From the NCBI GenBank assembly GCA_030528025.1, contig JAUMZP010000002.1, positions 62,001-126,000 on the forward strand: 64,000 nucleotides of DNA, written 5' to 3'. The DNA comes from Candidatus Saccharimonadota bacterium. Lineage in GTDB: Bacteria; Patescibacteriota; Saccharimonadia; Saccharimonadales; Saccharimonadaceae. Below are positions 30,972-40,735 of this stretch, in pieces (the first letter of the stretch is position 1; every line of letters begins with the position of its first letter). The notes beneath the pieces are model-generated. The model saw only the letters and a program-made list of their open reading frames with translations, did no database searches and was not told the DNA's origin. The translations under genes and the position numbers were made by a program.

Positions 30972-31047
30972 TGGTGGGGGCGGCTGGACTTGAACCAGCG
31001 GCCAACAGGTTATGAGCCCGCTGCTCTGACCACTGAGCTACGCCCCC
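30972..31047 (-). tRNA. tRNA-Ile2 (anticodon CAT, lysidine type)
   Basis: 76 nt with encoded CCA and a 7-bp acceptor stem GGGGGCG/CGCCCCC. The anticodon stem GCGGG/CCTGT surrounds loop CTCATAA. The D-arm and T-arm closely follow the bacterial Ile2 pattern (CAGTGGT, TTGG, GCTGGTTCAAGTCCAGC). A CAU anticodon becomes k2CAU after modification by TilS, encoded about 4 kb downstream at 35204. Elongator Met is the less likely identity. Confidence 0.75.
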
Positions 31048-31844: not shown

Positions 31845-32303
31845 ATGAAGTTTGCGTTCAGCGACACTACCAAGCGCCACATCATCTATAAGATCAAGCA
31901 TGATTATCTCCAGCTCAATACCATTGTGCTGGTGCTTGCACTCGTGATTGCGACATACCTTGCCTGGCAGTCGGTGGCACGTCTCCAGCAGAACTACACG
32001 CAACAGCGTGAGCTAGAGACGAAACGGCGGCAGCTTGTCCTCACCGAGCTTGAGACGCAAACGCTGCAATACCAAAAGAACTTCCGCGAGAGTGATGAAT
32101 ACAAAGAGCTTGCTGCTCGTGAGAAACTTGGCCTAGTGACACCTGGCGAGAAGGTGATTGTGCTACCTAAGAATAGTGCTGAGGCACACGATCCGCCAAC
32201 CAACAAGCCCACTAACCCCGATACGCAGAGTAGTAACTTCGAGCAGTGGGTGACCTTCCTCTTTGGTGGTGCAGCCGAGCAGGCTCAGCAAAAGGATAAA
32301 TAA
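31845..32303 (+). CDS. FtsL/DivIC-like septum formation initiator
   Basis: 152 residues with the classic layout: short cytoplasmic N-terminus, one membrane helix (NTIVLVLALVIATYLAWQSV), a coiled coil (ARLQQNYTQQRELETKRRQL) and the C-terminal AREKLGLVTPGEKVIVLP motif seen in DivIC/FtsB. These link FtsQ/DivIB to the septal peptidoglycan machinery. TATAAT at 31831-31836 lies 8 nt before ATG 31845. Confidence 0.85.
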   Translation: MKFAFSDTTKRHIIYKIKHDYLQLNTIVLVLALVIATYLAWQSVARLQQNYTQQRELETKRRQLVLTELETQTLQYQKNFRESDEYKELAAREKLGLVTPGEKVIVLPKNSAEAHDPPTNKPTNPDTQSSNFEQWVTFLFGGAAEQAQQKDK

Positions 32304-32386: not shown

Positions 32387-32503
<117 letters not shown>

Positions 32504-33163: not shown

Positions 33164-33240
33164 TGGTAGCACCGACTGGGATCGAACCAGTGACCTCAGG
33201 CTTATGAGTCCTGCGCTCTAACCGGCTGAGCTACGGTGCC
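33164..33240 (-). tRNA. tRNA-Met elongator (CAT)
   Basis: 77 nt with encoded CCA. Acceptor GGCACCG/CGGTGCT with a terminal G-T pair, and D-stem GCTC/GAGC with the elongator C11-G24 pair. The anticodon loop CTCATAA sits on CAGGA/GCCTG, whose top pair A31-G39 is a mismatch. The overall pattern matches bacterial elongator Met (TAGAGC, AGGTC variable loop). Confidence 0.85.
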
Positions 33241-33371: not shown

Positions 33372-34760
33372 ATGATACGACGACCACGCTACGATTATGA
33401 TTTGTTGGTGCTGGGTAGTGGTGCAGCTGGCAGTACTGCAGCTTTGGTGGCGGCCCGGGCAGATAAGAAGGTGGGGCTGATTGAAGCAGACACCTTTGGT
33501 GGTAGTGCACCTAATTGGGGTGATATCCCGATTAAGACGCTGCTGGGTGTGGCACAGCTCTATAACCGCATCCAACAGGGTCACCAGTTTGGGCTCGATA
33601 CATCGCGAGTGGATTTTGACTACCCAGCCATCCAGCATTGGAAAAATACAGTGGTAGAGCGGACTGGTGCGGGCGATAACGAGCACTATTATAACCAACA
33701 AGGGATTGATACATTCTACAGCAAAGGCGTCTTACGTGACCAGCACACTGTAACAATTGGTGATCATGAAGTAACGGCAGGGCATATTTTGATCGCAACA
33801 GGGGCACACGTGACCCAGCCAGCGATTGCGGGTATCGAGACAATTGACTGGCTGACACCACGCACCGCCCTCAAACTGAGCCACCCGCCTCGCAGCCTGT
33901 TAATCATTGGTGCGACGACGGTGGCGATTGAGCTAGCGCATTTCTTTGCGACCTTTGGTAGCACGGTGTCGGTGGCAGAGCAGTCATCGCGCATTTTGCC
34001 GACTGAGGATGAAGAGGTAAGTGAGGCAGTGAGCAGCCTCCTGCAGCGCGACCAACCACTGTCGGTCCTAACGCAAACGACGATTCGCTCCCTCATGCGT
34101 GGCCCAAGTGGTAATGTGATCGTCCAATATATCCGTGGTGGTATTGAGCGGACGATGGAAGTAGAGCGTGTTTTGGTAGCAACCAAGCCAGAGCCAACCA
34201 TTGATATTGGGCTTGATAATGCTGAGGTAACGTATTCGCCCGATGGTGGTGTTGAAGTTAATCAATTCTTCCAAACCAACGTGCGGCATATCTATGCGGC
34301 GGGCCACGTGCTGGGTAATGATGTGCCAACCCACACCGTCTTGAGCGAGGGCCGGCTAACAGCACACAACATCCTTCACCCCAAATCGCAAATGACGCTT
34401 GACTACGAGCTAGTGCCACGCGCTACCTTCATCTATCCAGAAGTGGCTAGCGTGGGCTTTAATGAAGATGACTGTATTAAGCGCGATCTCAAGATTAATA
34501 AAGTGTTGGTGCCGCTCGGGATGATTGCTCGCAGCAATACAAGTGACTTCCGTGAGGGGTTCGTTAAGCTGATTAGCGACAAGCAAGGGGTATTGCTCGG
34601 TGGGACGATCGTCGCTCCGCGCGCTAGTGAGCTCATCCAAGAGGTCACTCTCGCCATCAAGCACGACCTTACTGCTGAGCAGCTGGCCGAGCTCCCACAT
34701 GTTTTCTTAACGTGGAGCGAAGCAGTGCGAACGGCGGCAAGTAAGCTGTCGCGTAAGTAG
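33372..34760 (+). CDS. dihydrolipoamide-dehydrogenase-like flavoprotein lacking the redox disulfide
   Basis: 462 residues, full family length. FAD motif LLVLGSGAAGSTAALVAARA, NAD(P)H-binding LLIIGATTVAIELAHFF, second FAD segment HIYAAGHVLG and the dimerisation domain from about 345. Class I disulfide oxidoreductases have two Cys in GGTCxNxGCIP. Here the site reads GGSAPNWGDIPIK, with Ala46 and Asp51 in their place, and the C-terminal HxHPTxxE is HVFLTWSE. It probably binds FAD and NAD(P)H but cannot do dithiol chemistry. AAGGAG precedes ATG 33372; TATAAT lies about 40 nt upstream. Confidence 0.88.
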   Translation: MIRRPRYDYDLLVLGSGAAGSTAALVAARADKKVGLIEADTFGGSAPNWGDIPIKTLLGVAQLYNRIQQGHQFGLDTSRVDFDYPAIQHWKNTVVERTGAGDNEHYYNQQGIDTFYSKGVLRDQHTVTIGDHEVTAGHILIATGAHVTQPAIAGIETIDWLTPRTALKLSHPPRSLLIIGATTVAIELAHFFATFGSTVSVAEQSSRILPTEDEEVSEAVSSLLQRDQPLSVLTQTTIRSLMRGPSGNVIVQYIRGGIERTMEVERVLVATKPEPTIDIGLDNAEVTYSPDGGVEVNQFFQTNVRHIYAAGHVLGNDVPTHTVLSEGRLTAHNILHPKSQMTLDYELVPRATFIYPEVASVGFNEDDCIKRDLKINKVLVPLGMIARSNTSDFREGFVKLISDKQGVLLGGTIVAPRASELIQEVTLAIKHDLTAEQLAELPHVFLTWSEAVRTAASKLSRK

Positions 34761-35203: not shown

Positions 35204-36052
35204 ATGGCATATCTTGTTGCAGTGTCTGGTGGTGTGGATAGTGTAGTACTCTTGGATGTGATGGTGGCGCAGGCGACGGAGCCGTTGATTGTGGCGCATG
35301 TCGATCATGGGATCCGGGGTGAAGCATCGGCGGCGGATGCGCGCTTTGTGGCAGCACTGGCGGCGCGCTATGGACTACCCTTTGTGTCTACTCAGCTTAA
35401 GCTTGGGCCGAATGCGAGCGAAGCAGCAGCGCGAGAGGCTCGGTATGATTTTTTGCTCGATACAGCAGCGCAGTACCAGGCACCAGTGGTAACAGCACAT
35501 CACTTGGACGATTTGGTAGAAACAGTGGCGCTTAACTTGGTGCGTGGGACGGGCTGGCGTGGGTTAGCCGTGCTGAATCGCCCCGGGGTTGAGCGGCCAC
35601 TACTGGGCTGGCGCAAGGCAGATATCCGCGCCTATGCATTGGCTCATCGCCTGGAATGGGTAGAAGATGAGACAAATGCAAGTGACCGCTACACACGCAA
35701 TCGGCTGCGGCGCTGCATTCAGCGGTTCCTCACGGCAGAGCAGGCGGCGCAGATTACCTCGCTGCGGGATCGGCAACTTGCGCTACGCCATACGATTAAT
35801 GATGAAGTGCAACACCTCTTGCCGCAGTTTGCGGCTGAGCGCTATGGATTTATTATGATCGACGAAGCAAGCGCTCAGGAACTATTGGGTGCGATGATCA
35901 TGTGGGCGGGTGCACCGCGCCCAACCCATCCGCGGCTTGAGCGTGCGGTGCTAGCCATCAAGACTGCTCGTCCAGGCAGCCGCCATGTGGTGGGCGATGG
36001 AGTGTATTTACAGTTTGGCCCTCGGCAATTCACTGTAGAAGTGGTACAATAG
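35204..36052 (+). CDS. tilS: tRNA(Ile)-lysidine synthase
   Basis: 282 residues. The PP-loop SGGVDS lies at residues 8-13, followed by HVDHGIRG, EAAAREARYDFLL, TAHHLDDLVET and RGTGWRGLAVL, all TilS family marks. It converts C34 of tRNA-Ile2 (CAU) to lysidine so that it reads AUA. The short form lacks most of the C-terminal domains. TATACT is 6 nt before ATG 35204. Its substrate tRNA gene is at 30972. Confidence 0.93.
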   Translation: MAYLVAVSGGVDSVVLLDVMVAQATEPLIVAHVDHGIRGEASAADARFVAALAARYGLPFVSTQLKLGPNASEAAAREARYDFLLDTAAQYQAPVVTAHHLDDLVETVALNLVRGTGWRGLAVLNRPGVERPLLGWRKADIRAYALAHRLEWVEDETNASDRYTRNRLRRCIQRFLTAEQAAQITSLRDRQLALRHTINDEVQHLLPQFAAERYGFIMIDEASAQELLGAMIMWAGAPRPTHPRLERAVLAIKTARPGSRHVVGDGVYLQFGPRQFTVEVVQ

Positions 36053-39637: not shown

Positions 39638-40735
39638 ATGGAACATATCCGTAATTTCTGCATCATTGCCCATATCGACCACGGCAAGAGTACCCTGGCC
39701 GATCGCATGATGGAGCTGACAGGCACCGTTACTAAGCGGGATATGAAGCAGCAATTGCTGGATAGTATGGATCTGGAGCGTGAGAAAGGAATTACGATCA
39801 AGCTAGCCCCAGTGCGGATGAAGTATGAGTATAAATCGGAAGCGAGCAGTATATCATCGCTCCCATCGTCGAAGATCCCCATGGAATCTTCACGTCGGTC
39901 GCTGGACGCGGGTCCTGTCAGTCGATCTGCCCCTTCTTCTGAAAAATCGGAGATTTCTTCAGAAGCGGGTGCTGCCCCGTCGACTGCCACCCGCTTAGTA
40001 TCGCCTGCTGATTCAATTGATGGGGGCAAAAACACCGCACCCCAGCCTGGCACCTACGACCTCAACCTGATCGATACCCCCGGCCACGTGGATTTCAGCT
40101 ACGAAGTATCACGTAGCTTGCAGGCCTGCGAAGGTGCGGTGCTGGTGGTGGATGCCAGCCAGGGGATTCAGGCGCAGACGCTTGCCAATGTGTATCTCGC
40201 GATGGAGCAGGACCTCACGATCATTCCGGTGCTCAATAAAGTCGATCTGCCAGCAGCCGATGTGCCACGCGTCTCCAAGCAGGTGATTAATCTACTCGGC
40301 TGTGATGAGAGCGATATTATTCATATCTCAGCCAAGACTGGGCAGAATGTACCGCAAGTGCTCCGGGCTATCGTCGAGCGTATCCCGGCACCAGTGTCGC
40401 CATTAGCGGTGCAGGCTGAAAGCATGGCCGCGCAGGGGGGCGATAGGCCAGCCGTACCAACGCGTGCCCTGATTTTTGATAGCTACTATGACGACTACCG
40501 CGGGGTCATCCTCTACGTGCGCGTGGTAGATGGCACGATACCGAAAGGTGCGGACATCACCATGATGGCTACCGGAGCCCGCGGCCTCGCCCTGGAAGTG
40601 GGATATCTCAGCCCAACTATGCAGTCTGATCCACTGCTTGGTACAGGCGAAATCGGCTACATTGTCACTAACCTGAAAACCACGCGTGAAGCGCGGGTAG
40701 GTGATACGGTGACACTCAAGAAATACTTTGAGTAG
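39638..40735 (+). CDS. lepA: elongation factor 4 (LepA), N-terminal half: G domain and domain II
   Basis: 365 residues. The G domain has AHIDHGKST (11-19), [14 protein letters not shown] (switch I), DTPGHVD (146-152) and NKVD, followed by beta-barrel domain II ending [11 protein letters not shown] and a TAG. In other bacteria LepA continues directly into LPGF.KVKP, found here at 43697. Residues about 67-138 are a Ser-rich, probably disordered insertion in the hairpin between switch I and DTPGH. The gene has no promoter of its own and rides on the murJ transcript. All motifs for GTP binding look intact. With the 3' half it would make a complete LepA in two chains. Confidence 0.9.

Follow-up and report, generated by a model that had tools for sequence, protein, structure and literature searches.

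A cysteine-less flavoprotein of the disulfide reductase fold in Saccharibacteria and its proposed origin in a thiol relay

The window analysed here, a stretch of 64,000 nucleotides from the saccharibacterial genome G000 (1.03 Mb, 98.6% complete), encodes a flavoprotein, P0001, that has the fold of the disulfide reductases and lacks their redox-active cysteines. We consider the chances somewhat better than even that the ancestor of P0001 was the flavin reductase in a thiol relay across the membrane and that P0001 is now an FAD-binding, NADH-reduced, thiol-free diaphorase or oxidase, or a redox sensor. Of the readings, that of a thiol-free diaphorase or redox sensor derived from the relay was ranked first, and a non-catalytic FAD-binding dimer, its main rival, was ranked second.

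Results

P0001 is a disulfide reductase relative without the cysteine pair

P0001 was encoded by one intact open reading frame of 462 amino acids. The following features were located in it.

33372..34760, plus strand: cysteine-less flavoprotein of the disulfide reductase fold, P0001 (open reading frame, Pfam domains, and Foldseek with a low-confidence model)
33414..33431, plus strand: N-terminal FAD motif GSGAAG, residues 15-20, intact, with G15, G17 and G20 invariant
33498..33530, plus strand: former CxxxxC, now GGSAPNWGDIP, residues 43-53, with Ala46 and Asp51 (alignment; 96 ingroup rows)
33909..33926, plus strand: NAD motif, now GATTVA, residues 180-185, with Thr182 in place of the second Gly (row alignment)
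34179..34190, plus strand: second ATG motif, now ATKP, residues 270-273 (row alignment)
34302..34307, plus strand: FAD 'GD' motif, now GH, residues 311-312 (row alignment)
34698..34721, plus strand: HVFLTWSE, residues 443-450, with Phe445 for the catalytic His and Glu450 kept (alignment)

Pfam matches above the cut-off were obtained with PF07992 (142 bits), PF02852 (79.1 bits) and PF00070 (49.8 bits). P0001 thus has the double-Rossmann FAD/NAD and dimerisation domains of the flavoprotein disulfide reductases (class I pyridine nucleotide-disulfide oxidoreductases), and it departs from them at the redox-active CxxxxC and at the C-terminal His-Glu dyad. The active-site positions were aligned to mercuric reductase (5x1y) and to M. 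tuberculosis lipoamide dehydrogenase (3ii4). The original prediction that Ala46 and Asp51 replace the two cysteines was borne out by the translation and by this alignment. It had also described the His-Glu dyad as altered. The C-terminal His-x-His-Pro-Thr...Glu motif did read HVFLTWSE in P0001, with the His replaced, but Glu450 was retained, so only half of the dyad was lost.

Among the 49 NCBIfam models matched, P0001 was under the cut-off in each of the best 25. It scored 315.3 bits with the dihydrolipoyl dehydrogenase model TIGR01350 (cut-off 408.8), 311 bits with the mercuric reductase (MerA) model TIGR02053 (cut-off 454.45), and 208.7 bits with NF005883, the NAD(P)H-quinone dehydrogenase model of the LpdA type (cut-off 479). 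A Cys pair was present at neither mercuric reductase Cys site. The window genome gave a single match to the lipoyl domain PF00364, which was sub-cut-off (19.3 bits) and lay in a 1296-aa open frame. In Saccharibacteria, the flavoprotein accompanies a CcdA-like or CcdA-derived membrane protein, not 2-oxoacid dehydrogenases. The earlier label 'lipoamide-dehydrogenase-like' was therefore misleading, given the missed cut-offs, the genome without a lipoyl domain over the cut-off, and the CcdA-type partner. A lipoamide dehydrogenase role was rejected on the first two of these grounds.

The predicted structure of P0001 had a pLDDT of 62, with residues 43-102 below 50, so active-site geometry was not read from the model. 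Foldseek with this low-confidence model gave dihydrolipoyl dehydrogenase and mercuric reductase as the best matches. The genome also encodes a second relative outside the window (L002, G000:C3:21745-23040), which keeps GGTCINIACIP and HPTVSEA and which we take to resemble RclA-type reductases.

The FAD motif is intact and other cofactor motifs are eroded

The residues of the N-terminal FAD motif, G15, G17 and G20, were invariant in 24/24 rows with both cysteines (Cys-type) and in 70/70 rows with neither (Cys-less), and P0001 retained Glu38 at this site. The earlier proposal that the dithiol chemistry was lost while the FAD motif was kept is supported by these residues together with Ala46 and Asp51. 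As aligned, P0001 has no dithiol path, and it likely binds FAD.

The same prediction held that both nucleotide-binding folds were well preserved. This was true of the N-terminal FAD motif; the GATTVA, ATK and GH motifs were eroded. Gly182, Gly272 and Asp312, which are all lost in P0001, were each kept in 24/24 Cys-type rows. In the 70 Cys-less rows, they were kept in 62, 57 and 60 and lost in 8, 13 and 10, respectively. Gly180 was intact in all 70 Cys-less rows, P0001 included. Residue 203 was Glu or Asp in the same 70 rows and Glu203 in P0001; an acidic residue at this position is the usual mark of NADH use. Judged from the alignment, the NAD and FAD sites of P0001 are more eroded than had been thought, and its reduction by NADH is plausible but weakened.

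The catalytic His was also absent from all 24 Cys-type rows, which had Phe (17) or Tyr (7) in its place. Since the Cys-bearing relatives lack it too, the loss of the His is older than that of the cysteines, and the ancestor already differed from canonical lipoamide and glutathione reductases.

These losses bear on the main rival, in which P0001 is a non-catalytic relic, that is, a pseudoenzyme serving as an FAD-binding dimer or scaffold. The Cys pair, the His, Gly182, Gly272 and Asp312 are gone from P0001 and both operon partners described below from its genome, and yet the gene is under purifying selection. Against it, the N-terminal FAD motif, Glu38, Gly180 and Glu203 are intact in P0001, and the NAD site is mostly conserved across the wider family. 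We regard the pseudoenzyme as unlikely, and as the best surviving of the alternatives to the relay-derived diaphorase or redox sensor.

The cysteine loss is old and shared

Flavoprotein matches of any kind at E<=1e-3 were found in 284/392 genomes of the class, and the ortholog was present in 228/241 sampled genomes of the window's family. Among the 96 ingroup rows, 24 had both cysteines, 70 had neither and 2 had one. The first orthologs read (L003-L036) had neither Cys and mostly read GG[DE]SPNW[SG]DVP or the same ending in IP. Cys-bearing relatives in Saccharibacteria read GGECPNWGCIP, and five of them (L051, L057, L073, L077 and L130) belong to the window's own family. Those in other CPR had GGECPN or GGHCPN forms. 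It had been proposed that close homologs with the cysteines would mark the change as recent and confined to this genome; relatives at 73% and about 50% identity proved to be Cys-less as well.

A tree of the 96 rows was built by a quick method with SH-aLRT support only, after excluding the two trait columns. The Cys-pair state needed 5 changes on it. One deep loss covered the clade of P0001 (65 rows, support 100), with L132 as its sister (support 94). Full losses were separate in L066/L101 and in L129/L133, as were partial losses in L053 and L075. On this SH-aLRT tree, the position of P0001 within the Cys-less clade was poorly supported. The fixation of the substitution in a 65-row clade and the presence of the ortholog in nearly all family genomes indicate more than chance. 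A recent inactivation of P0001 was rejected, as the Cys loss is common to 70 rows and deep in the tree and the gene is under purifying selection.

Two further observations concern the relatives. The operon copies L149 (G109) and L150 (G262) have a short flavoprotein frame of about 285 aa that reads GGAEITTYELP, which suggests that the gene is decaying further in some relatives. Six CPR sequences (L111, L113, L114, L116, L117 and L119) read GGTCVNVGCVP and have SCC near the C-terminus; these are probably true mercuric reductases. Upstream of such mercuric reductase-like genes lies FAM11, a possible ArsR-like regulator as read by eye.

The flavoprotein belongs to a three-gene operon

In the usual operon, a membrane protein (FAM1) comes first, a stand-alone ATP-cone (FAM2) second and the flavoprotein third, all on the same strand. 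FAM1 (235 aa) was present in 39/64 loci and FAM2 (90 aa) in 32/64; these counts are lower bounds, as open reading frames were picked simply and some of the 64 loci are CPR outgroups that lack the operon. FAM2 matched the ATP-cone PF03477 over the cut-off in 2/3 members scanned (E 1.3e-8 and 1.7e-7), and the third gave no match.

In Cys-type loci, FAM1 contains the motifs NPC and ELPCTG, with the two membrane Cys found in 10 loci. FAM1 of the Cys-type locus L065 passed the cut-off of PF02683, DsbD_TM (33.4 vs 27.1 bits). In that of L052, also Cys-type, the Pfam scan matched only SfLAP, below the cut-off, and DsbD_TM was not listed. Both proteins matched the NCBIfam DsbD model NF001419, far under its cut-off, and that of L052 weakly matched an ArsG-family permease. 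None of the three Cys-less FAM1 proteins scanned (L039, L051 and L005) matched a DsbD model. The two types were nevertheless homologous by hhalign (probability 99.2, E 1e-19, 219 columns). No PDB homolog of FAM1 was found by sequence. A model of Cys-less FAM1, built from 4 sequences, had a pLDDT of 78.9; Foldseek returned nothing at E<=0.001, and the VIA-align matches were to transporters of a generic kind (Z up to 8.4), with no CcdA chain among the listed fold matches. By this model, the fold search favours neither side on the CcdA assignment. The weak SfLAP and ArsG-permease matches suggest that the ancestral FAM1 could be a transporter.

Both proteins were aligned at 82 loci. Both Cys pairs were present at 10, neither at 65, the flavoprotein pair only at 5, the membrane pair only at none, and 2 loci were partial. 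The five flavoprotein-only loci were the five Cys-bearing relatives of the window's family listed above. Beside a Cys-less flavoprotein, the two membrane Cys were absent in 65/65 scorable FAM1 proteins. Of the partial loci, L075 had lost one Cys from each protein; in L053, a single Cys remained in the flavoprotein, and the diverged FAM1 aligned with a gap at its second Cys site. Independent phylogenetic pairs agreed in 2 cases, were opposite in 0 and showed no difference in 2 (p 0.5, an underpowered comparison). The membrane Cys pair required 3 changes by unordered parsimony, and more if regain was barred. The link between the flavoprotein and the membrane protein was observed inside Saccharibacteria only: in L063 and in 8 Cys-type loci of other CPR (L102-L109), neither FAM1 nor FAM10 (see below) was found in the stretch at the locus, which counts against the relay; the genome of L063 (G057) carries FAM1 elsewhere.

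At the genome level, the FAM1 profile matched in 240/392 genomes of the class. In the 241 genomes of the window's family, the ortholog occurred with FAM1 in 224 and alone in 4 (G000, G130, G196 and G325, the last at a contig end); FAM1 occurred alone in none, and 13 had neither. A threshold of E<1e-20 cannot separate the ortholog from a Cys-bearing paralog, and nine family genomes with matches of E 1e-20 to 1e-60 were searched again. The ortholog adjoined FAM1 in 8 of these, and G327 had the paralog type only (GGTCINIACIP). G196 stands for a second such lineage: its flavoprotein (L131) is Cys-less and its genome gave no FAM1 match, but the NAD and GD motifs of L131 are intact.

These counts bear on the possibility that P0001 is simply a soluble enzyme like Irc15p or LpdA (a diaphorase, NADH oxidase or quinone reductase), with the operon partners incidental. 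In its favour are the intact FAD motif in every Cys-less row and the example of Irc15p, which lacks both cysteines and, according to PMC6296175, reduces ferricyanide, DCPIP and menadione and gives H2O2 with NADH. However, FAM1 accompanies 224 of the 228 family orthologs and is never alone, which argues that the partners are generally not incidental. P0001 also falls far below the LpdA-type cut-off and has lost Gly182, Gly272 and Asp312. In addition, no heme-copper oxidase (PF00115) was found in the window genome by a search in which controls matched in 8/14, and coupling to a respiratory oxidase was rejected on this basis. We consider a plain soluble enzyme with incidental partners unlikely, and place it below the pseudoenzyme.

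A further, speculative proposal is that, across most of the family, a conduit for thiol electrons through the membrane lost the thiols of both proteins and was retained as a machine of membrane, ATP-cone and flavoprotein parts that works without disulfide chemistry. It would be a transporter or channel whose gating responds both to the NADH/FAD redox state and to ATP or dATP, with P0001 as a flavin sensor that has come away from the membrane part. We hold this only tentatively and rate it lower than the plain soluble enzyme.

A putative exported client accompanies the intact cysteine pairs

A Cys-bearing protein, FAM10, was encoded upstream of the operon; its hydrophobic N-terminal part, as read by eye, makes it look exported. 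FAM10 was present in 10/10 intact loci and in the partial loci L053 and L075; its presence in L053, which has no intact Cys pair, counts against the relay. It was found in 0/5 flavoprotein-only loci and beside 0/70 Cys-less rows, where the short loci extend only about 0.5 kb past FAM1. Together with the co-distribution of the Cys pairs, this pattern fits a relay running from NAD(P)H through FAD, CxxxxC and the membrane Cys pair to an exported client. Motifs resembling HWHAD and HEH occur in most FAM10 proteins and might bind metal. A large P-type-ATPase-like gene, FAM6 (read by eye), lies near the operon, mostly in Cys-type or partial loci: it is upstream in L052, L056, L062, L063, L064, L065 and L075, and also in L072.

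Strong matches to thioredoxin PF00085 (E<=1e-15) were found in 0/10 intact-relay genomes vs 100/241 window-family genomes; the window genome has one clear thioredoxin match. The pattern fits a flavoprotein that feeds CcdA directly, but it carries little weight, as the genomes are related and 141/241 window-family genomes also lack a strong match.

The ancestral system might instead have served metal or metalloid detoxification, with a MerA-like reductase and a permease. The sub-cut-off 311 bits of P0001 with the MerA model and the ArsG-permease match of one ancestral-type FAM1 (L052) point this way. However, the six MerA-like CPR sequences with SCC near the end have a C-terminal Cys pair that is missing from the Cys-type members, FAM1 of L065 passes DsbD_TM, and FAM10 is Cys-bearing and exported-looking. 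A detoxification origin thus appears improbable beside the thiol relay.

P0001 stands alone at the old address and is under selection

The address of P0001 is defined by two markers; the names FtsB, TilS, FtsH and MurJ were given by reading the sequences and are presumed.

31845..32303, plus strand: left marker, FtsB/DivIC-like gene (FAM3), a recurring neighbour in 23/64 loci
35204..36052, plus strand: right marker, TilS-like gene, then FtsH- and MurJ-like genes, in the same order as in L134

In the same-genus locus L134, the order, with further genes interspersed, was FtsB, the operon (reversed), TilS, FtsH and MurJ. In the window, it was FtsB, P0001 (forward), TilS, FtsH and MurJ. This shared synteny indicates that P0001 is the positional ortholog, inverted and with its partners gone. 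FAM1 was not found by profile in G000 or in its sister G130, and all eight other same-genus genomes with the ortholog have it. FAM2 was likewise not found in these two genomes (controls matched 4/4), and no other DsbD_TM protein was found in the window genome (controls matched in 11/14). As L003, L008 and L038 apparently come from one genome, G130, two genomes are known to carry the P0001 type.

Between P0001 and L003, pS was 0.80, which is saturated, and pN was 0.17, similar to pairs of operon-borne orthologs. These values indicate that P0001 is under purifying selection. A decaying pseudogene or a recent inactivation in this genome only is very improbable: the stem branch of P0001 and L003 is long (0.64 and 0.73 changes per site), but these selection values, the intact frame in two genomes and the Cys loss common to 70 rows all speak against it.

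Other features of the window were also noted. Three tRNA genes with anticodon CAT lie within 2.3 kb (30972-31047, 32387-32464 and 33164-33240); the last two fall between the FtsB-like gene and P0001. A long terminator-like hairpin of 19 pairs (32462-32503) follows directly after the tRNA at 32387-32464. The open reading frame at 39638-40735 reads by eye as the start of a LepA-like GTPase in which a Ser-rich insertion, roughly 70 residues long, separates the nucleotide-binding motifs; at only 365 aa, it is possibly truncated or frameshifted.

Discussion

From the observed losses, operon, co-occurrence, synteny and purifying selection, we infer an electron path, a client and a present function for P0001. 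In the ancestral system, NAD(P)H would have reduced FAD, from which electrons would have passed through the CxxxxC and the two Cys of a CcdA/DsbD-like membrane protein to the FAM10 client, and the ATP-cone subunit probably sensed ATP or dATP. On the line to most genomes of the family, the first losses would have been those of the client gene and the membrane cysteines, followed by that of the flavoprotein pair, with the membrane / ATP-cone / flavoprotein operon retained through the thiol loss. In the window lineage, both partners would then have been lost, leaving the flavoprotein gene alone at its old address in inverted orientation. P0001 most likely still binds FAD and is reduced, perhaps weakly, by NADH; its eroded NAD and GD motifs argue against strong NADH oxidation. 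It would either donate electrons to a non-disulfide acceptor, as a diaphorase or oxidase like Irc15p, or report the NADH/FAD redox state by a change of shape.

To our knowledge, cysteine-less or half-cysteine relatives of the disulfide reductases are scattered cases. Here, the steps stand side by side in one lineage: an intact relay, loss of the membrane Cys and the client, loss of the flavoprotein Cys, and loss of the partners in the window genome, with the gene still selected. This is a natural series for asking what a flavoprotein does after thiol loss. The retention of the genes after the enzyme and its membrane partner lost the relay cysteines in most relatives points to a putative new, thiol-free job. 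The system also suggests a CcdA-type conduit that was fed by a flavoprotein instead of thioredoxin, and it names a conserved, uncharacterised three-gene unit in bacteria of poorly known physiology. Literature searches on Saccharibacteria with dihydrolipoamide dehydrogenase, mercuric reductase or CcdA, and on the ATP-cone with CcdA or CcdA with lipoamide dehydrogenase, listed no paper that appears to describe this system.

Comparison with known systems

Dihydrolipoyl dehydrogenase and mercuric reductase are the best sequence and fold matches of P0001. Unlike them, P0001 scores under both cut-offs and has no CxxxxC, catalytic His or C-terminal Cys pair. Irc15p of Saccharomyces cerevisiae is like P0001 in having the lipoamide dehydrogenase fold and FAD, in having lost both redox cysteines and in lacking disulfide reduction. 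It has Tyr and Ala at the Cys sites, whereas P0001 has Ala and Asp. Irc15p retains the His-Glu dyad, while P0001 lacks the His and has eroded NAD and GD motifs; Irc15p is also a microtubule-associated protein, unlike P0001. PMC6296175 describes Irc15p as a cysteine-less lipoamide dehydrogenase relative with diaphorase, quinone-reductase and peroxide-forming activity, which changes shape.

M. tuberculosis LpdA, described as a quinone reductase in PMC6296175, likewise has the disulfide reductase fold with no working dithiol. LpdA lacks one Cys and both dyad residues, whereas P0001 lacks both Cys and keeps the Glu. The likeness to the CcdA/DsbD pathway lies in the one scanned ancestral-type partner that passes DsbD_TM and in the two Cys motifs in 10 loci. 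In the DsbD pathway, electrons come from NADPH through thioredoxin reductase and thioredoxin (PMC8945050). The saccharibacterial system differs in that the flavoprotein lies within the operon and in that all such thiols are gone in most loci.
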